From: a bacterium
GTDB lineage: Bacteria; UBP18; UBA7526
Length of the DNA: 34,952 nucleotides
Reading direction: 5' to 3'
Assembly (NCBI GenBank): GCA_030619985.1
Contig: JAUXAI010000007.1
Span: forward strand, 1 to 34,952
The notes beneath the pieces were generated by a model, which was given only the letters and a program-made list of their open reading frames with translations, did no database searches and had not been told where the DNA came from. Numbering within the stretch: position 1 is the first letter of the stretch; each line of letters begins with the position of its first letter. Of the stretch, positions 5,599 to 34,952 are shown in pieces. Both the position numbers and the translations under genes were made by a program.

Positions 5599-5693
5599 AA
5601 CAAGGGTGACAAGGGTGATACGGGTAGCAGGGGTGGCAAGGGTTTAAACCCCTGTTACCCCTGTAGCCCCTGTCTCCCCTGTAACCCTTGAAC
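5599..5693. repeat. Inverted array of 9-nt units (AAGGGTGAC / CCCCTGTTA types)
   Basis: Left of centre are five 9-nt units of the form AAGGGTGAC, AAGGGTGAT, ACGGGTAGC, AGGGGTGGC and AAGGGTTTA. Right of the TTTAAA at about 5642 are AACCCCTGT, TACCCCTGT, AGCCCCTGT and similar. Spacing is exactly 9 in both halves while the units vary, so this is an old minisatellite in palindromic form. It has no T-run expected of a terminator. Confidence 0.85.
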
Positions 5694-5709: not shown

Positions 5710-7773
5710 TCAGAATATCCTCTCAATGAGTGCCATGAGATGCTTATTGAGAGATAGGATAACGGGAGAAAAGACCAGGGAGACGATGGCCATGAGCTTC
5801 AATAGAATATTTAAAGAGGGACCTGCAGTATCCTTGAAGGGATCCCCTACCGTATCCCCGATGATGGCGTCCTTATGGACTTGAGAACCCTTCCCCCCCA
5901 AATTTCCTTCCTCAATATATTTCTTGGCATTGTCCCAGGCACCACCAGCATTGGCGAGCATGATGGCCAAGGGGACACCGGTCACTAAGGAACCGATTAG
6001 AAACCCTCCTAGGGTCTCCACCCCTAAGAGAATGCCGATTATGAAGGGAATGATGACCGCCATGATCCCGGGAACGATCATCTCCTTTAAGGCGCCCCGG
6101 GTAGTAATATCCACACACTTGTAGGAGTCGGGCATCACCTTCCCCTCCATGAGGCCCTTTATCTCCTTAAACTGCCTTCTCACCTCTTCCACGACCTTAT
6201 GGGCCGTCCTTCCCACGGCCTGCATGGTCGCTGAACAGAAGAGGAAGGGAACCATCCCTCCTATGAATAGGCCGGCAACTACCTTGGCCTTGAGACAGTC
6301 AATGAGGGTGAGGTTCACTGTCTTGGAATAGGCAACGAATAGAGCAAGAGCGGTCAGGGCAGCAGAGCCAATGGCGAATCCCTTTCCAATGGCAGCCGTG
6401 GTATTCCCCACGGCATCCAGCCTCTCTGCCCTTTTACGAACCTCTGGCCCCATACCAGCCATCTCGGCAATCCCGGCCGCATTATCGGCAATGGGACCAT
6501 AGGCATCGACCGCCACGGTCATTCCTGTTATGGATAACATTCCAATGGCGGATAGGGCGATCCCGAAGATCCCTTCTAACCAGTAAGCGATGATGGTCGC
6601 CAAGCCGATGGCCACCATAGGGAGGGCGGTAGATCTCATTCCCACCGCCAGGCCCTGAATGATGTTGGTTGCTGGACCAGTAGTCGTTGCCTGGGCGATC
6701 TGGCGCACCTCTTTTCCCGAGGTGAAGTACTCTGCGGTGAATCCCACGATGAGACCCGCCACCAGACCAGCTAAAACACTGAAAAAGGTATTGAATATCT
6801 TCCAGGATTCGTTATACCAGTAGGTGGCTAGAATGAAGGCTCCGATTATCAAAACCAGGGCGCTGGATACCATGCCATTGCGCAGTGCTCTCTGAGGATC
6901 CTGGCCCTCCTTCATCCTCACGAAGAATATCCCAATAATAGAGGAGAGGATTCCCCAGCCAGCCAATAGCAGAGCGAGCATCATCCCCTTGGTATTGAGT
7001 GCTGCGGCAGCAATGATCAGACAGGCGATGATGGCCCCCACATAGGACTCATATAGATCAGCCCCCATACCTGCTACATCCCCTACATTGTCGCCCACAT
7101 TATCTGCAATGACCGCTGGATTTCGGGGATCATCCTCTGGTATCCCTTTCTCCACCTTTCCCACCAGATCAGCACCAACATCTGCGGCCTTAGTGAAGAT
7201 TCCCCCTCCTACCCTGGCGAATAGGGCCACCAGGGAAGCGCCCATAGAAAATCCCACGATGAGTGAAGTAGCCTCTATGATTCTATTTGATAATTCCATC
7301 TCTCCTTTGCCAATAAAGAGCAAGAAGACCAGACAGAGACCCAATAGACCAAGGGAAACAACGGAGAGGCCCATCACCGCTCCTCCGGGAAAGGCAACAG
7401 AAAGCGCCTCGTTGAAGCTCTTTTTCGCCCCCTGGGCAGTTCGGGCATTGGACTTGGTGGCGATCTGCATTCCAAAGTAGCCAGCCAGAATGGAGAAGAA
7501 GGCGCCCACTAAGAAAGCCAAGGCGGTCTTCTTCGCCACAGCGAAGAAAAGGATTATGGCGATGGCCAGGATGAAGAAGGCGATTACCTTATACTCTCGA
7601 TATAAGAAGGCCATGGCTCCCCGATGAATGCTATCCGAGATCTTGATCATCTTCTCACTTCCCGCATCCTTCCTCAGTATTCTCCGAGAAAGAATAAAAA
7701 CGAAGAAGAGACCCACTACCCCACAAGCCAGGGCAGCTATTAAAGAGGTTAAATCACCAAATACCGGGATCAT
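5710..7773 (-). CDS. hppA: Membrane-bound cation-pumping pyrophosphatase, K+-dependent type
   Basis: This protein couples PPi hydrolysis in the cytoplasm to Na+ and/or H+ export. About sixteen transmembrane helices are visible over 687 residues. The PPi-binding loops are present: [21 protein letters not shown], then [20 protein letters not shown], and near the C-terminus [32 protein letters not shown] carries Ala where K+-independent enzymes have Lys, so this is the K+-dependent class. [10 protein letters not shown] resembles Na+-pumping members, but ion choice is inference. AAGGAGGG precedes the ATG. With pckG nearby, it points to a PPi-economising metabolism. Confidence 0.97.
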
Positions 7774-7795
7774 CTCTCCCTCCTTTCACTCGGGA

Positions 7796-8057
7796 GTTAA
7801 CAGTTTACAGTGTACAGTTTACAGTAAAAAAGTAGAAGAGCATCAGATAACCAGATTATCAGATGGAGAAGGTCAGTTATCAGAATTTAGATAAAAATCT
7901 GATGCTCTGACTTTCTGAATTCTCATTCTAATACTCTGATGTTTTGCATTCTGAGCATCGCGAAGAATCTAGCCAGTTTATCTGGCGTCTAATCTATAGT
8001 TTCGCTGGTCACTGTTCGTCCGCCCCAAAGGGGCGAGACCTCGCCTTCGGCGGGCTG
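7796..8057. repeat. Composite repeat region between pth and hppA
   Basis: Three blocks are visible: AACAGTTTACAGTGTACAGTTTACAGT units (7799-7826, given here as separate TTTACAGT copies), a palindrome with AGCATCAGAT and ATCTGATGCT arms (7838-7904), and TTCTGA / ACTCTGATG units, then TTTCGCTGGTCACTG with a CCGCCCCAAAGGGGCG hairpin and GTTACTGGTTAC up to pth. No promoter or ORF is supported. Confidence 0.7.
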
Positions 8058-9395: not shown

Positions 9396-9630
9396 CGTTC
9401 GAAACACAGATTTGTACAGATATTAATACAGATTAGCACTGATTAGTTTAAATTCAAAAATCAAATATCAAAAATCAAGATTACCCCGGTACCATTCGGT
9501 ACGGGACAGGCATATTAAAATCCAAAATTTTAAACTGCGCTTTTTGCCCCTGCGGGATCCTGGAAGGGCATTTTGCATTTAGTCATCTGTGCCCATCCGT
9601 TTCCAAATCTGTGCCAATCTGCGGTTAGTC
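9396..9630. repeat. Inverted array of CAGATT units, interrupted by an AT-rich element
   Basis: The left arm is CACAGATTTGTACAGATATT, then TACAGATTAGCACTGATTAG (9402-9446). The right arm is TCATCTGTGCCCATCCG, then AAATCTGTGCCAATCTGCGG (9583-9627). The two arms are inverse complements in unit sequence, and the AT-rich element at 9449-9580 sits exactly between them, as a nested insertion would. Confidence 0.75.
9449..9580. mobile_element. Gene-less relative of the four-helix-bundle cassette ends
   Basis: AATTCAAAAATCAAATATC, then AAAAATCAAGATTAC, then ATATTAAAATCCAAAATTTT closely match the left end of the element at 33166-33611 (AAAATCAAAAATCAAATATT, ATCAAGATTAC, ATATTAAAATGTAAAATTA). A 27-bp palindromic insert (CCCGGTACCATTCGGTACGGG core) breaks the match after GATTAC. 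The far end carries GCATTTTGCATTT. No protein is encoded. It reads as a deletion derivative or solo end of the same family. Confidence 0.6.
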
Positions 9631-20530: not shown

Positions 20531-21528
20531 ATTATACGCCAATATTTTATTTCTAAAGTCTTTTCTTCTCTCTCTAAGATGGTTTCTATCCTCTTTCTTG
20601 CCTCGCCTAAAGAGCCCGTAGCATATACTTGAAAGAAACTACTTTTTACGGTAATGAGGGGACTGATCTTATTATAGAGTCTATCGTCTATCCCGAAGAC
20701 TTCTTTTAGGTCGGTAATCTTTTTAAAGGGATGTTCCTCGCGATATTCTACAATCTCTTGAGCCAGACTTTCATCGATATCAGAATGAAGGGCCTGGAGA
20801 ACAGGGAAGGAGGCGGTATTGATATTCACCTTCCCATCTCCATAGATTGTAAGGTAGGAGTTAAGAGAACCTCTCTCCTTCTCTTTTCCATAGAAGGCCT
20901 CATCATCAAAGCCTTTTAAAAGAAAGAGTTCATCTATCGTGCCCAGAGGGCCATCCTTGCAGGGGTAGGGATTCTCCAAGTTAGAGTAATAACTATCCTC
21001 TGCCCCAAAATCCCTTATTTCATCATCCTCATCTATCCAGTCACAGACTACATCAGCCAATTTCTTATCGATTTCAAGGACCTCAAATAGCCTCTCTAAT
21101 ACTGCCTTCTTTCTGTCATCAATCCTTCCCTTTTTAGTGAGAAGGGAGTTAATATTTATTTTACCACACTCGTCTATAATCTGAAAAGTTACCGCTCCTT
21201 CCTCTATGACAACCGGGGGCTTGACCAGGGCCCAATCCTCATCCAGGTAATCACAACTTAAGTCATCATCATCCCTCAAGAGGAGATAGGCGAAGTTGAC
21301 CCCGGAGTTTGCCAGATAGTAAGCCTTCAGGCTATCCCGATAATTTCCCGAGATCTCTGCCTCCACTCTCATGAGATAGTTAAACTCCAAAACCAAAACA
21401 GCCAGGATGGTGATGACTACCAGGGTAAGGACCAGGACCATTCCTCTTTGAGGATGAATCGGTGAATCGGTGAATCGGTGAATCGGTGATTTTCCCCGTT
21501 TCTTCCTTTCTCCCTGTCTCCGTTTCAT
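20527..21528 (-). CDS. gspK: Type II secretion minor pseudopilin GspK
   Basis: GspK is the large minor pseudopilin that caps the pseudopilus tip with GspI and GspJ. The prepilin motif is QRG followed by MVLVLTLVVITILAVLVLEF; as in other GspK proteins Glu at +5 is absent. The body contains GKININSLL, VCDWIDEDDE and a helix-hairpin-helix-like GDGKVNINTASFPVLQALH plus VEYREEHPFKKITDLKEVFG. The 29-residue leader (MKRRQGERKKRGKSPIH and on) is unusually long, because it is encoded by a repeat at 21456-21528. It overlaps gspL by 4 bp. Confidence 0.93.
   Translation of the reverse strand: MKRRQGERKKRGKSPIHRFTDSPIHPQRGMVLVLTLVVITILAVLVLEFNYLMRVEAEISGNYRDSLKAYYLANSGVNFAYLLLRDDDDLSCDYLDEDWALVKPPVVIEEGAVTFQIIDECGKININSLLTKKGRIDDRKKAVLERLFEVLEIDKKLADVVCDWIDEDDEIRDFGAEDSYYSNLENPYPCKDGPLGTIDELFLLKGFDDEAFYGKEKERGSLNSYLTIYGDGKVNINTASFPVLQALHSDIDESLAQEIVEYREEHPFKKITDLKEVFGIDDRLYNKISPLITVKSSFFQVYATGSLGEARKRIETILEREEKTLEIKYWRII
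21456..21528. repeat. Repeat at the 5' end of gspK
   Basis: On the plus strand four perfect GAATCGGT units (21456-21487) are followed by a pyrimidine-rich block containing CCCCGTTTC and CTCCCTGTCTCCGTTTCAT. On the coding strand the first 44 nt match the start of gspH with about two mismatches, beginning ATGAAACGGAGACAGGGAGA. It ends just before the prepilin cleavage motif. Confidence 0.85.
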
Positions 21529-21542
21529 AACCCACTCTCACT

Positions 21543-22211
21543 TCATTCTTTTACTGTCTCACTCTTTCCTAAAGGGATAAAGGCTATAGTGGAAAGCTCC
21601 TTGTTTGCAAACTTTAGGGTAACCTTAACCGCCTGGGGCAGCCCTTCCCCTTCTTTACTATCCCACTCATCACGCCATTCTTCCCCATCATAATACTTAA
21701 ACTCCAAACCCTCTAAGCCTTCCATTAGCTTTTCTCGTTCTCCTCCCTCAAGAACATCGTCATCTGGTGTCCTATCTTCTCTACGCCATAGAAAAAGACT
21801 CTCTCCTTCTTCATCTACTTCTGTGAAGTAGCCGATCTCTACCAAATCATACTCTTTGCTATCCTTGAATATTCTCTCATGGGAAGAGGAAATAAAGTCT
21901 ATCTTTCCTTCTTCTCCAGAAAACATCACATCCTCACTATCTTCTGAAAAAAAGGAAGAGGTGAGTTCATCATTCATTCTGCTTAAGGTGAGTCTTATTA
22001 TGGAGAAGGCATCCATCTTCTCCCGGGTATAGTTCATGGTATCAATACTTGAGGCATAGGAAGCGTAGATAATGGTGAGGATGAGACTAACGATGGCTAC
22101 GGCAATTAATATCTCAACCAGAGTAAATCCCGCTTGAAGATGAATCGGTGAATCAGGAAAGTTCTCCGTTTCTCCCTTTCTCCCTTTCTCCCTTTCTCTG
22201 TTCCACTCTAT
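21543..22211 (-). CDS. gspJ: Type II secretion minor pseudopilin GspJ, start out of frame
   Basis: GspJ is a minor pseudopilin of the tip complex. The class-III motif LQAG followed by FTLVEILIAVAIVSLILTII is encoded at about 22141-22073, followed by a body rich in Asp and Glu ending ELSTIAFIPLGKSETVKE. An ATG-initiated reading (MNYTREKM, 22037) would lack the whole prepilin segment and cannot be right. Upstream in frame, back to a TGA at 22253, there is no ATG, GTG or TTG; only ATA (22211) or ATT (22145). The GTG at 22206, aligned with the start codons of gspH and gspK, would be in frame if one more 8-bp GAGAAAGG unit were present. See findings. Confidence 0.82.
   Translation of the reverse strand: MEWNREREKGRKGETENFPDSPIHLQAGFTLVEILIAVAIVSLILTIIYASYASSIDTMNYTREKMDAFSIIRLTLSRMNDELTSSFFSEDSEDVMFSGEEGKIDFISSSHERIFKDSKEYDLVEIGYFTEVDEEGESLFLWRREDRTPDDDVLEGGEREKLMEGLEGLEFKYYDGEEWRDEWDSKEGEGLPQAVKVTLKFANKELSTIAFIPLGKSETVKE
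22142..22200. repeat. Repeat at the 5' end of gspJ, with three to four 8-bp units
   Basis: On the coding strand GAGAAAGG is repeated three times, then GAGAAACG, then GAGAAC. TTTCCTGATTCACCGATTC follows, and then the prepilin motif. It is the same element type as at gspH and gspK, but its length leaves gspJ out of frame with the GTG at 22206. Confidence 0.85.
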
Positions 22212-22975
22212 TCTCTCTTCGCAAGATAGGTAATTACTTCCAGATTTTTCTCATCCCAGGAGACGGTCAAGGTTACCTTCCTCAAATCCTCAATGGGGGT
22301 CTCGGTCACTCTTTTTCTCCAGGTGAAGCGGGGATACTCCTCTCCAAAGTCTCCTTCTTCCCCTCCTACCTCAGGGAATCCTTCTAATTCTATCTCAGCC
22401 ATCTTTCCCTGAGCAAGTAGAGTGGCCAGAGAGAAATCCTGGGACACATTAGCCATACTCACCCCCAGACCATAGGAATGGAGGATGACTACTAAAGCAA
22501 CAGCAATGATGGCTATCGCGATCATCACCTCAATCAGAGTGAAGCCTTTCTTCTTTGAATCGGAGAATGGGGGAATCGGGGAATCGGAGACTTTTGGCTT
22601 TATTAGCCATTTATCTGCTTCATCAATCATCTTTACAATCTGGCCAATAATTTTGTTGTATGCTGCATCTAAACTTCCCGCCATAGTTTTACTAATATAA
22701 CGACATCTGAATGCAAATTCCACCCAGACTTGCGTTTCGCAGGCTTCAGTCTCTGCATCACTCAACTTTGCGATAAACGCATTTTTATATCTCCTTTTTC
22801 GCCAGGCTTCAGCTATGTTAGTACATACTGACCTTGATGAACGTCTGGCTTGGTCAACAAGAGAATATCTTTCCTCTGCAGGAAAAATTTTCGTTATTTC
22901 AAAAATCTCCATTGCTTTATCTAATGCCAGTTGGTATACTCTCAAATCTTTATAACTTCTTATCTTCTCTCCCAT
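22208..22975 (-). CDS. gspI: Four-helix-bundle (S23/IVP) protein fused to minor pseudopilin GspI
   Basis: Residues 1-125 are a complete four-helix-bundle protein of the 23S-rRNA intervening-sequence family: SYKDLRVYQLALDKAMEIFE, ERYSLVDQARRSSRSVCTNI, AEAWRKRRYKNAFIAKLSDA, ETEACETQVWVEFAF. A linker KVSDSPIPPFSDSKKK follows, then the prepilin motif KKKG / FTLIEVMIAIAIIAVALV with cleavage expected after Gly144, and about 111 residues of normal GspI. Ordinary GspI leaders are about 6-10 residues. Prepilin peptidase would thus release the bundle into the cytoplasm. An internal ATG (MIDEADKW, residue 117) could give a 28-residue leader instead. Repeat units border the bundle on both sides. Confidence 0.9.
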   Translation of the reverse strand: MGEKIRSYKDLRVYQLALDKAMEIFEITKIFPAEERYSLVDQARRSSRSVCTNIAEAWRKRRYKNAFIAKLSDAETEACETQVWVEFAFRCRYISKTMAGSLDAAYNKIIGQIVKMIDEADKWLIKPKVSDSPIPPFSDSKKKGFTLIEVMIAIAIIAVALVVILHSYGLGVSMANVSQDFSLATLLAQGKMAEIELEGFPEVGGEEGDFGEEYPRFTWRKRVTETPIEDLRKVTLTVSWDEKNLEVITYLAKRE

Positions 22976-23020
22976 TCTCCCTTTCTCCGTTTCTCCGTGT
23001 CACCGTTTCACCGCGTCCCT
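22557..23020. mobile_element. Four-helix-bundle insertion between two halves of the pseudopilin repeat
   Basis: On the coding strand, GGTGAAACGG, ACGGAGAAACGGAGAAAGGG (22976-23011) precede the bundle, matching the purine-rich half of the gspH/J/K element. On the plus strand four 8-nt units GAATCGGA, GAATGGGG, GAATCGGG, GAATCGGA (22557-22588) lie after it, matching the other half. The bundle gene lies exactly where the other three genes have only a short junction. Confidence 0.7.
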
Positions 23021-23028
23021 GTTTTAAT

Positions 23029-23580
23029 CTATTCACTCTCCTCTTCAACATATCCCTCATAGACCATAACCTGGCCCATGGTGCCTTTGATTAATAGGGT
23101 CTGGACCTCTTCCTTTTCATTCTGGAGATGAATAATGGATTTTGTAACATAGCCTTTGGGGAAGAAGAGGGTAAAGGTCTGGCCACTACTTATCTTCCCT
23201 TCTGGAATAATAATATCCAGGAATTTTATCCCTTCCGGAAGGGCCTCCCTCCTTCCCAAAACGGTCTTTACTTCCTCAAACTCTCCCTCTTCATTCTCCT
23301 CCTCTATCCAGTATTTATTCTCATCTAAGTCATAACAGAGACGCAAGCGTTTTCCTGTAGTTGCTGAGCGATCATGAAGATAGCGGATAGTTCCTATCAG
23401 ACGGCGGCTTGTGCTCTTCAGGTAGCTTCCGGAGAAGAAAGCCTCCATCCTGGGAAAGGTAATGGTTAAGACCGCCGCCAAGACAATAAGGACGATGATT
23501 AACTCAATGAGAGTAAAGCCTTCTTGAAGATGAATCGGTGATTTTCCCCGTTTCTCCCCTTCTCCCTGTCTCCGTTTCAT
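23029..23580 (-). CDS. gspH: Type II secretion minor pseudopilin GspH
   Basis: GspH is a minor pseudopilin located below the tip complex. The prepilin site is LQEG followed by FTLIELIIVLIVLAAVLTI, with Glu at +5. The GspH/FimT body follows (FPRMEAFFSGSYLKSTSRRL, TIRYLHDRSATTGKRLRLCY). The 20-residue leader MKRRQGEGEKRGKSPIHLQE is encoded by the repeat at 23532-23580. AGGAAGGTTAAGTA precedes the ATG. The 183-residue length is normal. It lies between gspG and gspI with short gaps, consistent with one transcript. Confidence 0.93.
   Translation of the reverse strand: MKRRQGEGEKRGKSPIHLQEGFTLIELIIVLIVLAAVLTITFPRMEAFFSGSYLKSTSRRLIGTIRYLHDRSATTGKRLRLCYDLDENKYWIEEENEEGEFEEVKTVLGRREALPEGIKFLDIIIPEGKISSGQTFTLFFPKGYVTKSIIHLQNEKEEVQTLLIKGTMGQVMVYEGYVEEESE
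23532..23580. repeat. Repeat at the 5' end of gspH
   Basis: It begins ATGAAACGGAGACAGGGAGA on the coding strand and continues to ACGGGGAAAATCACCGATTC, then joins ATCTTCAAG and the prepilin motif. It has one GAATCGGT unit where gspK has four. Confidence 0.85.
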
Positions 23581-24061: not shown

Positions 24062-24180
24062 ATTTGTTAGTTTGCTGGTTATTTGATACCTTATCAACTT
24101 ATTAACTTATTAACTTATTAACTTGTTAACTAACCAATTATCCAACTATTTTACTAATTTACCTAATTTACTTAGCCGAT
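24062..24180. repeat. Array of TTATTAAC units downstream of gspF
   Basis: TTATCAAC, then three TTATTAAC and one TTGTTAAC unit at 8-nt spacing (about 24092-24130). AATTTGTTAGTTTGCTGG on the left and TACCTAATTTACTTAG on the right form loose inverse arms. A related array of GTTAACAAGTTGACAAG lies on the other side of gspF. Confidence 0.75.
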
Positions 24181-25427: not shown

Positions 25428-25520
25428 GTTTGTTAGTTGGTTAATTAGATAGTTGACAAGTTAACAAGTTGACAAGTAAAAGTATGGCGGAATCGGACCA
25501 AACTGGCTAACTGGCAAACT
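25428..25520. repeat. Array of GTTAACAAGTTGACAAG units upstream of gspF
   Basis: GTTTGTTAGTTGGTTAATTAG, then GTTGACAAGTTAACAAG and GTTGACAAGTAAAAG are followed by ACTGGCTAACTGGCAAACTAG (units quoted separately). It pairs loosely with itself and resembles the array after gspF, so gspF is bracketed. Confidence 0.7.
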
Positions 25521-27303: not shown

Positions 27304-29241
27304 TTACTTCCTCTCAAACTCCTTTATCTCTTCCCTCTTTCTCTCAGTCAGGGCTTCGACCTCCTCTGGGGTAGTGACCACATGAGGGGTTAGAAAGATG
27401 ACCAGGCTTATCTTCTCTGTGACCTCTATCTTTCTCTTAAAGAGCCAGCCCAATCCCGGGATCCTTCCCAGTCCGGGGACCCTTCTCTCCACAACAGATT
27501 TATCTTCTCTCAGTAGGCCCCCAATAACGATGGTCTGGCCATCCCTGACCGTCACTGTGGTATCTGTCTCCCTCTTGGCCAGAACCGGAGCATCATGTAT
27601 CGTCTCTGCTAATACTTTCTGAATCTCCTGATGAATCTTTAAGGTAACAAATCCCTCAGGATTGATCTGAGGGGTGATCTTCAATACAATTCCCACATCC
27701 TCATAGGTATAGGTCTTGACCACCGTCTCATCCTCTGTTATCCGAGTAGCGGTGACCATGGGAACCCTCTTCCCCACCTTTATCTCCGCCTCCTGATTAT
27801 TATTCACCAAGAGATAGGGGGTAGATAGGATATTGAATTCAGAATCAGTCTTATAGAGGTTAACCAGGGCTCCGATATTCGTCGCTTCATCTTTGTATAG
27901 CCCAAGGGTCATTCCATATAGAGTTCCTGCTAAGAGTTCTGGTCGCATACCGAAGTGGGTAGCTCCAAAGGGCTGATGGGCCTTGTCCGGCCGGAGCTCA
28001 TCCACCAGTGCCCACTCCACTCCTAAATTCAGGAACTTCTCTAAAGTGACCTCTGCTACCAGAGCCTCCACTAAGACCTGTTGGCGCGGGATGTCTAATT
28101 TCTCAATGATCTTCTCTAACTCCTCATACTGAGTGGGAGCAGCAATGATGATTAAGGAGTTGGTCAGCTTATCAGCAACGATAGTGGGCTTGGCCTCTAT
28201 AGCCAGGGCCTTTCCCTTCCCCACTCTGCGAGCAACCATCTTGGCATACATCTCGGTCAGAACCTTGGCCAGGTCTGTAGCATTTGAGTTCTTGAGATAG
28301 TAGACGTGAATCATCTCCTTTCCCGGAGGGGGCTTCCTATCGATCTCTTCCATGATGGTCATCATCCTTCTTATATTACTAGAGACATCGGTAACGATGA
28401 CCGTATTGGTTGGGGGATAGGTAATGAGGTTTCCTCCAGGAGAGATCAGGGGGGTCAAGAGGCTTCGCACCTGGTCACAGGCAGCATACTCTAAAGGGAT
28501 GATCTGGGTGACGATCCTATCCTCTGGGCTTATCTTCTTGACCTCTCTCCCCACCCTGGTCTCGATGCTCTTCCCCTTGGCCTCTCTTGAGGGGATGACC
28601 TTTATCACCTTTCCCGCCGGAACCGTGGTATAGCCTTTCACTTCTAGGATGGATTCTAAAACACGATATACCTCATCCAGGGGAATCTTGGTGGGGGAGA
28701 TGATGGTCACCTTCCCCCTCACCTTCTCATCGATGACGAAGTTCTTCCCGGTCAATTCGCTTATTGCTTTAATCACTACCTTAATATCAGCATCCTTGAA
28801 GTCTAAGGAAACATATTTTTCCGGGTAACCGGGTAACCGGGTAACCGGATATCCGGGTTTTGGTGAAATTCTCAAGGAGAGTCTATCTTTCTGGCTGGTT
28901 GTTTTATACTCTGCTGGTCTTTTCAGATCTATGACCACCCGACTGATCCTCTTCGGTCTATCCTTGAATTGAGCAGACCTTATGCTCTTCACCAACGGAT
29001 GCTCAACTACCAATTCTCTCTTAGGCCAGGCGTGGATGGCATTGGAAAGGTCTATTACCATACGATCTGGCTTAGTGAGAAAGAAGACATTATAGTTATG
29101 GGGAGAAGGAAGGGTAATATTAACCATTGCCTCCCCATCCCTTGGTATGAAGGTTATTTTGGTCAATTTATTTACTGCCCCAGAGAGGCTACTCCCCAAA
29201 AATAAAAGAATCAAAGATAAAATTACTATTCTTGTTTTCAT
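27304..29241 (-). CDS. gspD: Type II secretion secretin GspD with N-terminal AMIN domain
   Basis: GspD forms the outer-membrane channel. A signal peptide (KTRIVILSLILLFLGSSLSG) is followed by an AMIN domain (about 25-112), which binds peptidoglycan in pilus and flagellar secretins and is more typical of PilQ. Then come N0 (SLDFKDADIKVVIKAISELT), two N-domains (TQIIPLEYAACDQVRSLL and HVYYLKNSNATDLAKVL) and the secretin core (LVEALVAEVTLEKFLNLGVE; ILSTPYLLVNNNQEAEIKVG; TVRDGQTIVIGGLL). Residues about 125-139 (PGYPVTRLPGYP) come from a 9-nt tandem repeat. AAGGAGAAGAG precedes the ATG. Confidence 0.95.
   Translation of the reverse strand: MKTRIVILSLILLFLGSSLSGAVNKLTKITFIPRDGEAMVNITLPSPHNYNVFFLTKPDRMVIDLSNAIHAWPKRELVVEHPLVKSIRSAQFKDRPKRISRVVIDLKRPAEYKTTSQKDRLSLRISPKPGYPVTRLPGYPEKYVSLDFKDADIKVVIKAISELTGKNFVIDEKVRGKVTIISPTKIPLDEVYRVLESILEVKGYTTVPAGKVIKVIPSREAKGKSIETRVGREVKKISPEDRIVTQIIPLEYAACDQVRSLLTPLISPGGNLITYPPTNTVIVTDVSSNIRRMMTIMEEIDRKPPPGKEMIHVYYLKNSNATDLAKVLTEMYAKMVARRVGKGKALAIEAKPTIVADKLTNSLIIIAAPTQYEELEKIIEKLDIPRQQVLVEALVAEVTLEKFLNLGVEWALVDELRPDKAHQPFGATHFGMRPELLAGTLYGMTLGLYKDEATNIGALVNLYKTDSEFNILSTPYLLVNNNQEAEIKVGKRVPMVTATRITEDETVVKTYTYEDVGIVLKITPQINPEGFVTLKIHQEIQKVLAETIHDAPVLAKRETDTTVTVRDGQTIVIGGLLREDKSVVERRVPGLGRIPGLGWLFKRKIEVTEKISLVIFLTPHVVTTPEEVEALTERKREEIKEFERK
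28821..28858. repeat. 9-nt tandem repeat inside gspD
   Basis: CCGGGTAAC occurs three times and then CCGGATATC and CCGGG. It falls in the linker between the AMIN and N0 domains, and the 9-nt period keeps the frame. Confidence 0.85.
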
Positions 29242-30423: not shown

Positions 30424-30498
30424 TGGCTCCAGGGAGAGGACTCGAACCTCCAACCTAGCGGTTAACAGCCGCTCGCTCCACCATTGAGCTACCCTGGA
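30424..30498 (-). tRNA. tRNA-Asn (anticodon GTT)
   Basis: The acceptor TCCAGGG pairs with CCCTGGA, then G and an encoded CCA. D-arm GCTCAATGGTGGAGC. Anticodon stem AGCGG / CCGCT around CTGTTAA, anticodon GTT. T-arm GGAGG-TTCGAGT-CCTCT. It overlaps the last 15 codons of the GIY-YIG ORF on the same strand and lies 140 bp before gspC. Confidence 0.96.
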
Positions 30499-30766
30499 AT
30501 TTATTTGTTTTGTCCGTTAATATCTTGGTCTTGACGAACTCTCTACCTCGCCTATTTTTTAAATACTTCTCCCGTTCCTTTGCCTCTTCACGGGTTAAAT
30601 ATTCTTCAAAATATATTAGTGTCCAAAGACCTTTATATTGCTTAGTATATTTCGAATAGGTATTATTAGGGTCGTTATGTTGAGAAATCCTCTTTTCCAA
30701 ATTATTTGTTTGCCCAATATAATACTTTTTAGCCTTTCCATTCCAAATAATATAAACGTAATACAT
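30455..30766 (-). CDS. GIY-YIG nuclease-domain protein, ORF ending inside tRNA-Asn
   Basis: This is a small single-domain GIY-YIG endonuclease of the UPF0213 / YhbQ-like type. MYYVYIIWNG and KKYYIGQTNNLEKRISQHN hold the GIY and YIG strands and the catalytic Arg; EEAKEREKYLKNRRGREFVK holds the later Glu and basic region. I start at the ATG at 30766; twelve more codons upstream derive from the flanking palindrome. The last 15 residues (FQGSSMVERAAVNR) are translated tRNA-Asn, so the natural end is lost or the gene ends there by accident. It lies between two copies of a 45-bp palindrome. Function in DNA repair or homing is inferred from family only. Confidence 0.85.
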   Translation of the reverse strand: MYYVYIIWNGKAKKYYIGQTNNLEKRISQHNDPNNTYSKYTKQYKGLWTLIYFEEYLTREEAKEREKYLKNRRGREFVKTKILTDKTNKFQGSSMVERAAVNR

Positions 30767-30788
30767 CTTCTGACTATCTTTAATCCGT

Positions 30789-30833
30789 CCCGTTCCGTCC
30801 ATCCGTCTTTGCCGGTTGGCCGGACGGGACGGA
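30789..30833. repeat. 45-bp palindrome, right copy
   Basis: Same outer arms as 30368-30412, aligned without gaps with about six mismatches, all in the centre. Together the two copies bracket a 376-bp segment with the nuclease ORF and tRNA-Asn. Confidence 0.85.
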
Positions 30834-31257: not shown

Positions 31258-33147
31258 TTACCACTTAATATCTAATTGAACAAAGACAGTCTTCTTTGGC
31301 TCATCCTCTGCTGGGCTTCGACCCTCATCAGTATAGTTCTTGTAGGTATATCTTACCCGCAACTTGACATCCTTGGTGAACTTCTCCGTAGCCTGGAGAT
31401 AGTATTCCTGATATCTGGTACCCCGACCGCTATGGATATCGGTATCCCAGTACTTCATCCTTCCCTCTAATGTGAGGCCCTTGGGTTTAGGTAAGTCGTA
31501 GCGCACCTTGAAGTAGGCGGTCTGGTCCTCCTGAAATTTATTGGTATATTTGGAGGCATCCTTCTGTTTGAAGGTATAGGAGGTTTCTAACCTCAGCCTC
31601 TTAATGGGACGATATTTGCATTTGAAGTTATCGGTAATCGTCTCCCCCTCAGTAGAAGAGCGGCTTCTCCCCCCTCTATCGATATCATTATTCCGCCACT
31701 TTCTGTAATAACTCAAGTTGATTTTTTTTATGGGGGAATAGTCTATCTTTCCCCTCCATTCATCATCCGTTACTAAGGTAGAGTGCTGCTTCCACTGCTT
31801 ATAGTATCCCTGAACCTTCCATCTCCTGCTGAACTTATAATCTCCTTTTATACGGTACCCCTTCTCATCGGTATCTCTTCCAAAGGACTTACTATGGGGA
31901 TTTTCAAAGTCGGTATCATAATCATAGTAGATGGTCTCTAATTTGAACCTCTCCAGTTCCGTGAGGGCCTTCAGAAGATAGGCATCCCCTCCATCCTTCC
32001 TTCGACCAAACTCAGCAAATAGATTGGTCCTCTTTATCTTGGTGGCGAAGTCTAGCCCGGCCACAGAGAAGGTCCTTTTATCCGGGAACCTTGTCCAGTA
32101 ACTACTCTTATATTCAAAGGGAAAGTCCCGATCTATCTTACTCTGATACCAAGTGGCGCCTAAGTGGGTTTTCTTATCCCACCAGAAGGTGACATTGGCT
32201 CCTTCCAATTCCTCACGATAGACATCGGGCAGGGTCTTCGATGTCCGATTGGTGCTTACTGAGGGTAGGTCATAGTCATCCTGGGAGTAGAAGACTGTGG
32301 TATCCAGCCATCTCTTCCCTAAGGGGATCTTCTTCCACCTAAAGGCTGCTCCTAAGAGTCGGTCAGTAGTGGCATCGTTATAGTAGATCCCATGGGCCTT
32401 GCTCCGACCGGTCTCATTGAAGACCAGTCCCTGTCCAAAGCCCACCCCATAGTCACCAACGATGGCACTCCATTGGGGTTCAGCCATATAGATATACTTC
32501 CTCAAGAGGCGCACCTCAGTATCCTCATTCTTAATGATAGCAGTCGATCCAGTAGCGGTATAACCATCCAATATCTCATCCCTCTCTAATAAAAATCCTA
32601 GGTGGACCCGATCGTAGGCATGGAGGCGAAGCCTCTCATACATATAGGGCCTCTCTCCATCTTTCTCGGTATTCTTAAATTTAAAGCGCGACTCCCCCTT
32701 CCAACCCCTCTCTTCCTTCTTCCTCTTCTTCTCTACCGTAGCAAAGGGCTCTATCTGAGGATAAATGTCCTCTACTCCAGGAACCTTCTTAATATCCTCA
32801 GGTTTCTCAAAGGGACCATATCTTTCGCGGTAGGCGATGATTCTATCTGCCAGAGGATAGGTCATAGCGGGGAGGTTGTAGAGCTCCTTTCTACTGGCGG
32901 TATTGAGGTCCACCGGGTTATTGAATAGGTCCCTCAGAAGTTCATAGTCCTCCTCACTAATATCCCCACCAGCATACACCCATTCTTCTTCGTCATAGTC
33001 ATACTCCCACTCAGTCAAGTCATAGAGGTCGTCCTCACTCTCCACCCCGGATAGATCGACAGCATAGTCATAGGCCCAAAGGGGAGGAGCGAAGAACAAA
33101 AGGAAACCGACTGTTATTAAAATGGTGAGTTTCTTTCTGTAGTCCAT
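31258..33147 (-). CDS. Exported helix-hairpin-helix protein with beta-barrel-like C-terminal region
   Basis: I recognise the domains but no named family. A signal peptide (KKLTILITVGFLLFFAPPLW, then A) should be cut before YDYAVDL. A ComEA-like HhH pair follows at about residues 75-135 (NPVDLNTASRKELYNLPAM, ADRIIAYRERYGPFEKPEDI, KKVPGVEDIYPQIEPF). From about residue 150 to the end come alternating aromatic/polar strands (WDTTVFYSQDDYDL-like) with no helices and a terminal FVQLDIKW, typical of an outer-membrane barrel. Similar HhH-barrel proteins exist in Bacteroidetes/Chlorobi; a role in DNA uptake is a guess. The ATG at 33147 follows AAGGAAG. Length 629 residues. The first 297 bp of HhH region is near-identical to the gene at 33618. 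Confidence 0.85.
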   Translation of the reverse strand: MDYRKKLTILITVGFLLFFAPPLWAYDYAVDLSGVESEDDLYDLTEWEYDYDEEEWVYAGGDISEEDYELLRDLFNNPVDLNTASRKELYNLPAMTYPLADRIIAYRERYGPFEKPEDIKKVPGVEDIYPQIEPFATVEKKRKKEERGWKGESRFKFKNTEKDGERPYMYERLRLHAYDRVHLGFLLERDEILDGYTATGSTAIIKNEDTEVRLLRKYIYMAEPQWSAIVGDYGVGFGQGLVFNETGRSKAHGIYYNDATTDRLLGAAFRWKKIPLGKRWLDTTVFYSQDDYDLPSVSTNRTSKTLPDVYREELEGANVTFWWDKKTHLGATWYQSKIDRDFPFEYKSSYWTRFPDKRTFSVAGLDFATKIKRTNLFAEFGRRKDGGDAYLLKALTELERFKLETIYYDYDTDFENPHSKSFGRDTDEKGYRIKGDYKFSRRWKVQGYYKQWKQHSTLVTDDEWRGKIDYSPIKKINLSYYRKWRNNDIDRGGRSRSSTEGETITDNFKCKYRPIKRLRLETSYTFKQKDASKYTNKFQEDQTAYFKVRYDLPKPKGLTLEGRMKYWDTDIHSGRGTRYQEYYLQATEKFTKDVKLRVRYTYKNYTDEGRSPAEDEPKKTVFVQLDIKW

Positions 33148-33165
33148 ATTATACTTCCTTATAGG

Positions 33166-33611
33166 AAAATCAAAAATCAAATATTAAATATCAAGATTAC
33201 ATATTAAAATGTAAAATTATCTCTTCCCCTTAAGGGTTAGAATGCTTGAAGCAAAGATATTGGCGATCTCGTCAAGTTCTTTTAGAAACCAGGCAACTTC
33301 TTCTGGTTTAGCTCGCTTGCTATCACGAAGTAAAGCAAACCACAGCTTACTCTCATTGGCTGACTTGAGAGATGTATTGAAATAGTTGATAAAATCTTTC
33401 TTGCTGCTTGCTGACTCTCCTTCAATGTAATTTCCAAGAATGCTTGTCCCGCTCCGTAATAATTGGTCACCGATTCTTCTGGAAACATTATCCTTTGGCA
33501 GTCTATCTATGAATTCTATAAGCCTCAGGACAAAGTTATATAATCTTTTCTTGAATTCCTTTTTAAATTTTGATTTGTCATTTTCCATTTTAATTTTTGA
33601 TTTTTGATTTT
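33166..33611. mobile_element. Four-helix-bundle cassette with 23-bp terminal inverted repeats
   Basis: Left end: AAAATCAAAAATCAAATATT and AAA (33166-33188). Right end: its inverse complement with one mismatch, ending ATTTTTGATTTTTGATTTT (33589-33611). The only gene inside is the four-helix-bundle protein, whose first codons continue the AT-rich repeat. The element separates a truncated HhH gene from the full-length copy. A target duplication is not convincing (CCTTAT occurs on both sides but at unequal distance). No transposase is present, so mobility would be in trans. Confidence 0.65.
33217..33588 (-). CDS. Four-helix-bundle protein (23S rRNA intervening-sequence / S23 family)
   Basis: This small all-helical protein belongs to the family first met inside 23S rRNA intervening sequences and structurally related to Avd of diversity-generating retroelements. 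Its molecular function is unknown. NFVLRLIEFIDRLPKDNVSR, IGDQLLRSGTSILGNYIEGE, ASSKKDFINYFNTSLKSANE, SKLWFALLRDSK and the C-terminal ASSILTLKGKR are characteristic. Length 123 residues is normal. There is no Shine-Dalgarno before the ATG, where the sequence is the TIR. It differs clearly from the bundle fused to GspI, so two subfamilies are present. Confidence 0.93.
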   Translation of the reverse strand: MENDKSKFKKEFKKRLYNFVLRLIEFIDRLPKDNVSRRIGDQLLRSGTSILGNYIEGESASSKKDFINYFNTSLKSANESKLWFALLRDSKRAKPEEVAWFLKELDEIANIFASSILTLKGKR

Positions 33612-33617
33612 ACTACC

Positions 33618-34079
33618 TTATTTCTCTTCTGTTCTCCGGAGGGCACATCCTCCGCCTATCCTTTTAGTCCTAACCTTAATAAAGGGCTCTATCTGAGGAT
33701 AAATGTCCTCTACTCCAGGAACCTTCTTAATATCCTCAGGTTTCTCAAAGGGACCATATCTTTCGCGGTAGGCGATGATTCTATCTGCCAGAGGATAGGT
33801 CATAGCAGGGAGGTTGTAGAGCTCCTTTCTACTAGCGGTATTGAGGTCCACCGGGTTATTGAATAAGTCCCTCAGAAGTTCATAGTCCTCCTCACTAATA
33901 TCCCCACCAGCATACACCCATTCTTCTTCGTCATAGTTATACTCCCACTCAGTCAAGTCCCAGAGGTCGTCCTCACTGGTGATATCAGAGAGGTCCACCC
34001 CATAATCATAACCCAGAATGAAAGGAGCAAGGAATAGGAGACTAAAAATCATCAAAATAGTAATCTTTCTGTGATCCAT
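33618..34079 (-). pseudogene. Truncated copy of the HhH-barrel gene (signal peptide plus HhH only)
   Basis: The 153-residue product has a signal peptide (KITILMIFSLLFLAPFILG), the acidic segment and the HhH pair, then breaks off after QIEPFIKV into KRIGGGCALRRTEEK and stops 7 bp before the four-helix cassette. From 33681 to about 33977 it matches 32743-33039 with about six mismatches, while signal peptides differ. The barrel is missing. It could be a pseudogene or a short secreted HhH protein; the stop against the cassette end favours truncation. Confidence 0.7.
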
Positions 34080-34117: not shown

Positions 34118-34952
34118 TTACTCAATAGTAAAAGAACTTTTAAGAAAGCGGCAGGTCTCATCATCCATTCCCGGGATGTCCTTCAGTTCCCTTATACCCT
34201 TGAATGGACCATGGCTTTCTCTATAATCGATGATGGAACGGGCCATCTCTGGACCGATGTCCGATATGGCTGATAGCTCCTGATAACTGAGGCTATTGAT
34301 ATTGGGCTTCTCCACCGTGATGAGAGGCCTTAACTTCTCATAGGTCTTGGATCCGATACGGGGGACATTCTGGATATCGGAGACGCTTCTAAACGGTCGG
34401 TATTCAATGATGCGCCTTGCAGTCTTGGGCCCAATGCCTGGGAGGCTCTCCAACTCTCGCTGAGAGGCAATGTTGATATTTACCTTCCGGGATATCCTCT
34501 TCCTCACCTCTGGTCTTTCTCCTGGAGGAACCTCACCAACTGTAATCAGAGGTCTTAACCTCTCCAGGGTCTTTGGGCCGATCCCCCTGACCCTGATCAG
34601 TTCATCGATGGTAGCATAGGGACGGGTATCTATGATCGCCTGGGCCTTCACTGGTCCAATCCCGGGAAGGGTCTGAATCTCTAAAGGAGAGGCGGTGTTG
34701 ATATCAATCCTTGCTCTAACTGGAGGTGCTCTTTTCACAACCGGGACCTCCTTCTCGAGAGGGGCCTCGGGGGCTGGCTCTGTAACCTCACCAACTGTAA
34801 TCAGAGGTCTTAACCTCTCCAGGGTCTTTGGGCCGATCCCCCTGACCCTGATCAGTTCATCGATGGTAGCATAGGGACGGGTATCTATGATCGCCTGGGC
34901 CTTCACTGGGCCGATCCCGGGGAGGGTCTGAATCTGAGAGGCGCTTGCCGTA
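34118..34952 (-). CDS. Protein with tandem ComEA-like HhH domains (cut by window edge)
   Basis: The frame is open to the window edge, so the N-terminus is missing. At least four HhH domains are seen, each of the form INTASPLEIQTLPGIGPVKA, then IDELIRVRGIGPKTLERLR, PLITV. The first two units are almost identical: 255 bp apart, with over 120 identical bases (34531-34652 and 34786-34907). The later two (residues about 140-200 and 205-262) are diverged. HhH repeats bind DNA backbone without sequence preference; in ComEA they serve DNA uptake. The Pro/Glu linker (EVTEPAPEAPLEKEVPVV) separates units. It is followed by the two HhH-barrel copies and may share their process. Confidence 0.85.
   Translation of the reverse strand, partial: TASASQIQTLPGIGPVKAQAIIDTRPYATIDELIRVRGIGPKTLERLRPLITVGEVTEPAPEAPLEKEVPVVKRAPPVRARIDINTASPLEIQTLPGIGPVKAQAIIDTRPYATIDELIRVRGIGPKTLERLRPLITVGEVPPGERPEVRKRISRKVNINIASQRELESLPGIGPKTARRIIEYRPFRSVSDIQNVPRIGSKTYEKLRPLITVEKPNINSLSYQELSAISDIGPEMARSIIDYRESHGPFKGIRELKDIPGMDDETCRFLKSSFTIE

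Follow-up and report, generated by a model that had tools for sequence, protein, structure and literature searches.

Four successive pseudopilin genes of one gsp operon, gspH, gspI, gspJ and gspK, start with related repeats, and the locus raises the question of where these repeats come from and why they lie at the same point of each gene. We analysed the whole 34,952-nt stretch of DNA carrying the operon (the window) and compared it with relatives, using six incomplete genomes of one family (G000, the source genome, to G005). The gsp leader repeats very probably belong, as copies, to a single family of small mobile elements, called here IVP elements after the 23S_rRNA_IVP gene of their full form.

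Short-unit arrays in the window

Arrays of units repeated at lags of 7 to 9 are far above chance in the window: 15 were counted, versus none in ten block shuffles. Six were found at lag 7, eight at lag 8 and one at lag 9; there were none at lags 4 to 6 and 0-1 at lags 10 to 15, while the seven at lag 16 correspond to twice 8. Away from the pseudopilin genes, array counting located heptamer arrays (AGTAACC, 370-428), a 9-mer array (CCCCTGTAA, 5648-5687), a heptamer array (GTTTACA, 7794-7828), a heptamer-type array (AAATCAA, 9449-9482) and an octamer array between gspE and gspF (GTTGACAA, 25449-25480), all without assigned strand. Another octamer array (CCGGGTAA, 28816-28860, minus strand) lies in frame within gspD, where its product is KPGYPVTRLPGYPEK; at that position, the linker of G002 is short and unrelated. 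The window gave no rRNA match.

Anatomy of the pseudopilin leader elements

As the initial annotation had proposed, one repeat family occupies the starts of gspH, gspI, gspJ and gspK, with arrays in all four on the minus strand. This family, type A, consists of a GAAACGGA array followed by an inverted CCGATTC array. The purine-rich half and second half described earlier are both present and are inverted copies of nearly one octamer (GAAACGGA versus GAATCGGT read back).

The element is short in gspH, gspJ and gspK. At the start of gspK (21454-21526; arrays 21450-21494 and 21499-21526), the short element supplies a new ATG and the leader MKRRQGERKKRGKSPIHRFTDSPIH. At the start of gspH (23531-23578), it likewise supplies a new ATG and the leader MKRRQGEGEKRGKSPIH. 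These two copies are 94% identical over 53 nt, consistent with the match over 44 nt with about two mismatches noted before. The gspJ leader also carries a short copy (22140-22205; array 22159-22207), whose predicted RNA fold was no better than shuffles.

The gspI copy, on the other hand, is full length (22556-23014, minus strand). Between its left array (22966-23014) and its right array (22556-22593) lies a 23S_rRNA_IVP domain (E=1.3e-27; 22637-22951, minus strand; PF05635 and TIGR02436). It is part of the open reading frame 22208-22975, in which a complete gene for this four-helix-bundle protein is joined in frame to gspI. The two arms pair in the predicted RNA fold (z=-4.1), and the fold of IVP relatives has been solved (PDB 2rld, 2gsc).

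Finally, gspG was said to lack the element. It has no leader element, but a different octamer array (AAGTTAAT, 24086-24134, minus strand) lies directly upstream of it; this array is present in G002 and absent from G001 and G003.

Empty and re-occupied sites in relatives

The suggestion that the repeats are insertions was borne out by empty sites in relatives. gspI is uninterrupted in two congeners, G001 and G002. The gspK site holds the same element in G002, the left half alone in G001 and none in G003; the gspJ site holds other elements in G002 and G003 and the left half in G001. In G001 and G002, a heptamer element takes the place of type A at the gspH site. The words that make up the elements in these leaders of relatives are unrelated. 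Such word turnover at one site could be due in part to in-place rewriting and not to fresh insertion.

Outside the operon, PheS of the source genome alone contains a 108-nt in-frame type A insertion; PheS is contiguous in G001-G003, and G004 has a different heptamer element at that point. At another prepilin leader (C55:10109), which is short in the source genome and in G001, the G002 orthologue bears an IVP gene with type A arms, so that IVP-bearing and IVP-less forms are found at one site. Moreover, the window contains a second IVP element (unit AAAATCA, about 33161-33610, minus strand; IVP open reading frame 33217-33588, with a weak NF033474 match). A 450-nt near-copy of it, 91% identical, is present on contig C9 in an unrelated context, and G002 has another element at the junction. 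The gene duplication beside this second element was considered as a product of its insertion and rejected, since G002 has the duplication without the element. Taken together, the genomes of relatives point to a mobile element, through empty and re-occupied sites and through IVP-bearing and short forms of one leader.

Plain microsatellites expanded in place by slippage would account for the slight unit variation within arrays and for a unit that is partly arm-specific. This explanation is extremely improbable: the arms carry one word in two inverted arrays round a gene at 68 of 77 loci (see below), elements come and go as whole units (PheS, second IVP element), and the filled and empty sites of PheS and gspI differ by a whole two-armed element.

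Gene conversion between adjacent pseudopilin genes, moving the copies without movement of an element, is an unlikely alternative. The prepilin motif DNA is common to these genes, and the gspH copy matches the gspK copy best (score 90, and 95 with the gspK copy of G002; the next match scores 68). However, on the upstream side the gspH/gspK similarity ends at the element ends, and unlinked full and short copies show independent movement. The spread between these genes suggested earlier is nevertheless retained in one form: since the gspH copy is closest to that of gspK and gspH carries a different element in G001 and G002, local copying within the gsp operon is likely.

Prepilin genes and other type A sites

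An enrichment in prepilin-like genes was found when the rest of the source genome was searched. In pattern searches, type A was detected in 7 of 15 prepilin-like genes versus about 15 of the remaining genes, whose number is estimated at 1235. The seven leader copies form two clusters only; counted by cluster, with the number of operons assumed, the enrichment gives p = 0.002. Two octamer pattern matches, in RseP (C54:52105) and in a PPDK-like frame (C86:83), were rejected as ordinary coding sequence.

This enrichment could be taken as a sign of preferential insertion at DNA that the element recognises, namely the stretch encoding the prepilin signal (Lys/Arg-Gly-Phe-Thr), as the initial annotation had envisaged. 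The same leaders hold different families in G001-G003, and in both G001 and G005 the GFT motif itself contains unrelated perfect palindromes. We nevertheless regard such targeting as distinctly unlikely. Exclusivity did not hold: ordinary gene junctions hold the majority of type A copies, four copies are in frame within other proteins (PheS, a TolB-like protein, an O-antigen-ligase-like protein and the CFIATAAYGS protein), and almost every IVP element likewise sits at an ordinary junction or in another protein. Purine richness is also found at gene junctions, beside ribosome-binding sites. Moreover, because the seven leader copies lie in just two clusters, which local spread explains, the enrichment mixes tolerance and local spread. 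Tolerance plus local spread is thus favoured over prepilin-specific targeting, with the leader behaving as a safe harbour, presumably through its removal.

IVP loci across bacteria

The survey covered 77 IVP genes from 30 genomes, with 66 open reading frames of the same genomes as controls. Inverted arrays of 7-8-nt units surrounded the IVP gene at 68 of 77 loci versus 3 of 66 controls, counted where the arms exceed the 95% null. Among 47 loci from 24 genomes outside the source family, inverted arms were found at 40, and these came from 21 of the genomes. The array period is 7 or 8 and the unit varies between elements. The idea that the word follows IVP phylogeny was rejected: the two agree only above about 60% IVP identity, and there is no overall correlation (rho 0.03).

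IVP elements sit between genes of all kinds, and elements of this architecture are found in many bacterial groups. The upstream gene is co-directional in 62 of 68 cases, the orientation in tandem contexts is sense for 46 elements and antisense for 3, and the left arm begins a median of 2 nt past the stop codon. Shine-Dalgarno-like strings follow 18 of 51 elements; a purine-tract or Shine-Dalgarno-like target was rejected, as position relative to genes accounts for these strings equally well.

This sense orientation and the tight placing between a stop codon and the next start could also suggest functional RNA hairpins under selection, with a role in the processing of operon transcripts or in setting the translation of the gene downstream; in other bacteria, the IVS elements of 23S rRNA are excised by RNase III (PMC4990558). 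That explanation is quite improbable in view of arrays whose presence is not conserved between congeners, whose word changes freely and which occur inside proteins. Covariation on the RNA strand was rejected as proof of a stem: of the G-U bias that a stem would be expected to leave, there is a marginal surplus relative to A-C pairs per column (126 versus 92, p=0.025), and at the consensus level the balance is reversed (3 versus 7). Therefore, no RNA stem is claimed from covariation.

Comparison with known systems

In the literature searched, we found no description of IVP genes bracketed by inverted arrays between genes, and IVP elements with word-array ends are apparently undescribed. Among the closest systems are the 23S rRNA IVS of Coxiella and Leptospira, of 428-444 nt, which encode S23/IVP proteins (PMC4990558). 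These are suspected to be mobile and selfish and have complementary termini forming a stem, with one four-helix-bundle open reading frame in the loop. The same type of frame is present here, with domain matches over cut-off, as are complementary termini round it (gspI fold and the 68 loci above). In contrast, the location in 23S rRNA genes is absent: the gspI copy lies in an operon, and none of 40 sampled IVP loci was in an rRNA gene. Unlike 23S rRNA IVS, IVP elements separate mRNA genes or are inserted in frame within proteins, end in 7-8-nt arrays and have gene-less short forms.

Rickettsia palindromic elements (about 150 bp) resemble type A in being short and palindromic, in forming several families per genome and in lying in frame in unrelated protein genes, as here in the four proteins above and gspH-K. 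They differ from IVP elements, which have a gene-bearing form and word-array ends; no autonomous form is mentioned in the review PMC10969869. MITEs, like short type A, are short, non-coding and dispersed, lack a transposase gene and carry terminal inverted repeats; they are mobilised in trans (PMC10969869). Unlike them, IVP elements have an IVP-bearing full form, and IVP is no known transposase. A parent transposase and a target-site duplication were not found; at the PheS and second-IVP junctions, where element ends are fuzzy, no duplication is clear. The TAACTGA direct repeats of Beggiatoaceae are intergenic heptamer arrays that mostly point to the downstream start codon, sometimes overlap the end of the upstream frame and were proposed to be regulatory (PMC4679880). 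Compared by description, they share heptamer-scale arrays (periods 7 or 8 here) and sense orientation with IVP elements, but their description gives a single word, with neither an inverted partner array nor an IVP gene.

Avd of diversity-generating retroelements has a related four-helix-bundle fold (PMC10053308), and the weak NF033474 match of the second IVP in the window is a further point of resemblance. Unlike those retroelements, no reverse transcriptase (RVT_1, PF00078) was matched in the six incomplete family genomes, nor was Y1_Tnp (PF01797), the hallmark transposase of REP/RAYT systems. Both enzymes were rejected as mobiliser in this family on this result, although transposases are often missing from MAGs.

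Proposed mechanism and implications

The full form measures about 480 nt. A left array of about 4-6 copies of a 7-8-nt word is followed by a single gene, which encodes the four-helix-bundle IVP protein, and then by a right array in which a nearly identical word is inverted. Short, MITE-like forms keep the two arrays and have lost the gene, probably by deletion. In the mechanism that we propose, elements would be inserted between genes in sense orientation, immediately past a stop codon and shortly ahead of the ribosome-binding site that follows, and occasionally in frame into protein linkers. In pseudopilin genes, the element would overrun the old start codon and bring another in its place, together with a leader rich in Lys/Arg. 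Removal of this leader by prepilin peptidase would make the insertion tolerable, and a first copy in the operon could then spread to neighbouring leaders. IVP itself may take part in movement, and mobilisation might depend on an enzyme other than the two searched for, perhaps acting on the RNA hairpin.

Tentatively, a single unrecognised class of mobile element could carry IVP genes across bacteria as its cargo. Its ends would be inverted arrays whose 7-8-nt word changes freely, and it would enter transcribed gene junctions at stop codons, in sense orientation, by a route linked to RNA that requires no known reverse transcriptase and no Y1 transposase. The leaders of gspH-K would then be its traces.

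PF05635, a common domain of unknown function, thus gains a genetic context, that of small array-ended elements inserting between genes. An IVP gene has been reported between cmr3 and cmr2 (PMC3936711), and scattered IVP genes in cas loci would be insertions and not part of CRISPR function. TAACTGA-type heptamer repeats and 23S IVS elements may share one source. A selfish element can also rewrite signal peptides and protein linkers. As the elements are frequent and empty sites are easily found, the role of IVP and the movement of IVS become testable questions.

Inverted word arrays at the starts of gsp genes

Re-examination of the gsp operon, which lies on the minus strand, bore out the initial annotation's claim that repeats open gspH, gspI, gspJ and gspK. 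On the coding strand, the element, here called type A, reads (GAAACGGA)n then (ACCGATTC)n. Its second half is (GAATCGGT)n when read back, so that almost the same octamer makes up both arrays, in inverted orientation. The window contains 15 arrays of period 7-9, against 0 in ten block shuffles, and the only peaks in the spectrum of array lags are at 7, 8 and 16. Around ABC genes of the same genome, array density was 2.6 per 10 kb, compared with 4.3 in the window, indicating that the whole genome is loaded with arrays.

The gsp leaders were aligned with those of two genomes of the same genus (G001, G002) and one of the same family (G003), and empty sites, which the initial annotation proposed to look for, were found. 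gspI is uninterrupted in G002 (reading MWKKKGFTLIEV) and G001 (MWKKKNNGFTLIEV), and carries a heptamer element in G003. In gspH, a heptamer element (AGGCTAC...GGCTTGA) is present in G001 and G002, with a degraded one in G003. gspJ has a third word in G002, a heptamer in G003 and the type A left half in G001; gspK has type A in G002, the left half only in G001 and none in G003. Therefore the same leaders may be filled, empty or occupied by unrelated words.

A full-length element in gspI

Between the two gspI arrays lies a 23S_rRNA_IVP (IVP) domain (PF05635, E=1.3e-27). It occupies residues 9-113 of an ORF of 255 aa, with GspI as the C-terminal half. Only the ends of this element had been noted initially. 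Judging from the sequence only, a candidate internal ATG for GspI is located inside the IVP end.

That the short and full forms represent a single element is best supported by another prepilin leader (C55:10109), which carries short type A in the genome under study and in G001. At the same place, its G002 orthologue (C6:9075) contains an IVP gene (L164) bracketed by type A arms. This points to an origin of the short form from the full one. Another type A leader element (L079, about 6140-6260; C55:13640-13760) contains a nested palindrome, CCCGTTGGAAGCC...GGCTTTCCTTCGGGG, also found in G001 and, in variant form, in G002.

Of the ten IVP copies in the genome (91 contigs totalling 1.25 Mb, 84% complete), two fall in the window. 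Most of the ten are flanked by their own distinct word; two are near-copies of each other.

IVP elements as a class

Searches of 98 genomes gave 79 IVP loci, of which 77 had sufficient flank for analysis. The left flank was scored against the reverse complement of the right, with mismatched pairs as null. The score exceeded 95% of the null in 68/77 loci and 99% in 51, whereas only 3/66 control ORFs from the same genomes passed. Without the organism's own family, 40/47 loci passed, spread over 21/24 genomes. Clear arm periods were 7 (33 left, 29 right) or 8 (13 left, 11 right), and left arms favored G over C in 51 cases and C over G in 9. The two arms of one element match at 204/222 consensus positions (ungapped alignments only), and different elements have words in common only at high IVP identity.

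The left arm starts a median 2 nt past the upstream stop; between the end of the right arm and the next start, the median distance is 20 nt. The upstream gene is co-directional with the element in 62/68 cases. Among elements in tandem contexts, sense orientation outnumbers antisense by 46 to 3 (p about 7e-11, uncorrected for some copies that are closely related). This bias could reflect RNA-linked insertion, or a selective advantage of expressing the IVP from host operons. RNA folding predicts pairing of the arms in the full gspI element (z=-4.1), and gave mixed results for short type A copies. RVT_1 and Y1_Tnp had no match in the six genomes of the family, which are MAGs and prone to losing repeats. 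Outside the family, Y1_Tnp was counted by hand in 29/32 IVP-bearing genomes versus 30/60 without IVP, an excess that may reflect only general mobile-element load.

IVP genes are known in 23S IVS elements (PMC4990558), in rRNA insertions of CPR bacteria (PMC11270868) and near cas genes (PMC3936711), and the proteins as Avd relatives (PMC10053308). No rRNA gene surrounded the IVP in 40 sampled loci. One element (L190, G091:C37) lies near a CRISPR-DR7 repeat. The two nearest parallels are the TAACTGA arrays of Beggiatoaceae (PMC4679880) and the Rickettsia palindromic elements (reviewed in PMC10969869); no account of word-array ends or junction elements was found in the mainly open-access literature searched.

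Insertions outside prepilin leaders

Type A also occurs in frame within PheS, TolB-like, O-antigen-ligase-like and CFIATAAYGS-type proteins. PheS is uninterrupted in G001-G003, reading DTFYLTKNTLLRSHTSPVQ in G001 and G002, and G004, of the same family, has a different heptamer element at the insertion point. The TolB-like and CFIATAAYGS linkers carry other words in some relatives. GspD of the window contains an in-frame octamer array that G002 GspD lacks.

The window's second IVP element has a 450-nt near-copy (91%) in different surroundings on contig C9, and G002 has another element at its junction. It is flanked on both sides by duplicates, a 153-aa ORF and the N-terminus of a 640-aa ORF (88% over 421 nt; 31258-33180, 33618-34079); since G002 also has this duplication, it is older than the insertion. 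Nearby, a helix-hairpin-helix gene contains a 152-nt direct repeat (98% identity; 34529-34680 and 34784-34935). A GIY-YIG-like ORF (30455-30802) ends within a tRNA gene on the same strand (30427-30498), its last residues being tRNA-encoded.

Prepilin genes as probable tolerant sites

The genome-wide search proposed initially did detect the element at other prepilin genes: type A is present in 7/15 prepilin-like genes (candidates sorted by eye) versus about 15 of 1235 others, a total estimated from genome size. Targeting of prepilin DNA, as first suggested, is consistent with this enrichment, but the seven copies form two clusters, and such targeting may at most be weak. The alternative first suggested, spread between gsp genes, fits the gspH element, which closely replicates that of gspK: compared by eye with the G002 gspK copy, it shows a single mismatch over about 50 nt. 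Our reading of the enrichment is that prepilin leaders tolerate the element and that it has spread locally.

Palindromes that are perfect or nearly so, and that lack word arrays, sit at or within the prepilin motif itself at L215 (G001:C21 near 27004), L219 (G001:C45:272) and, in another genome of the family, L208 (G005:C57:385). A GF or GFT-like remnant precedes each palindrome and an intact motif follows (e.g. MKKRGFTP...GLTLIEI); they appear to be a further type of element occupying sites of this kind.

In the pseudopilin pathway, prepilin peptidase removes the leader. An element without a stop codon in the frame used, providing ATG and Lys/Arg codons, would make an acceptable leader, and its removal by the peptidase would allow the insertion to be tolerated.
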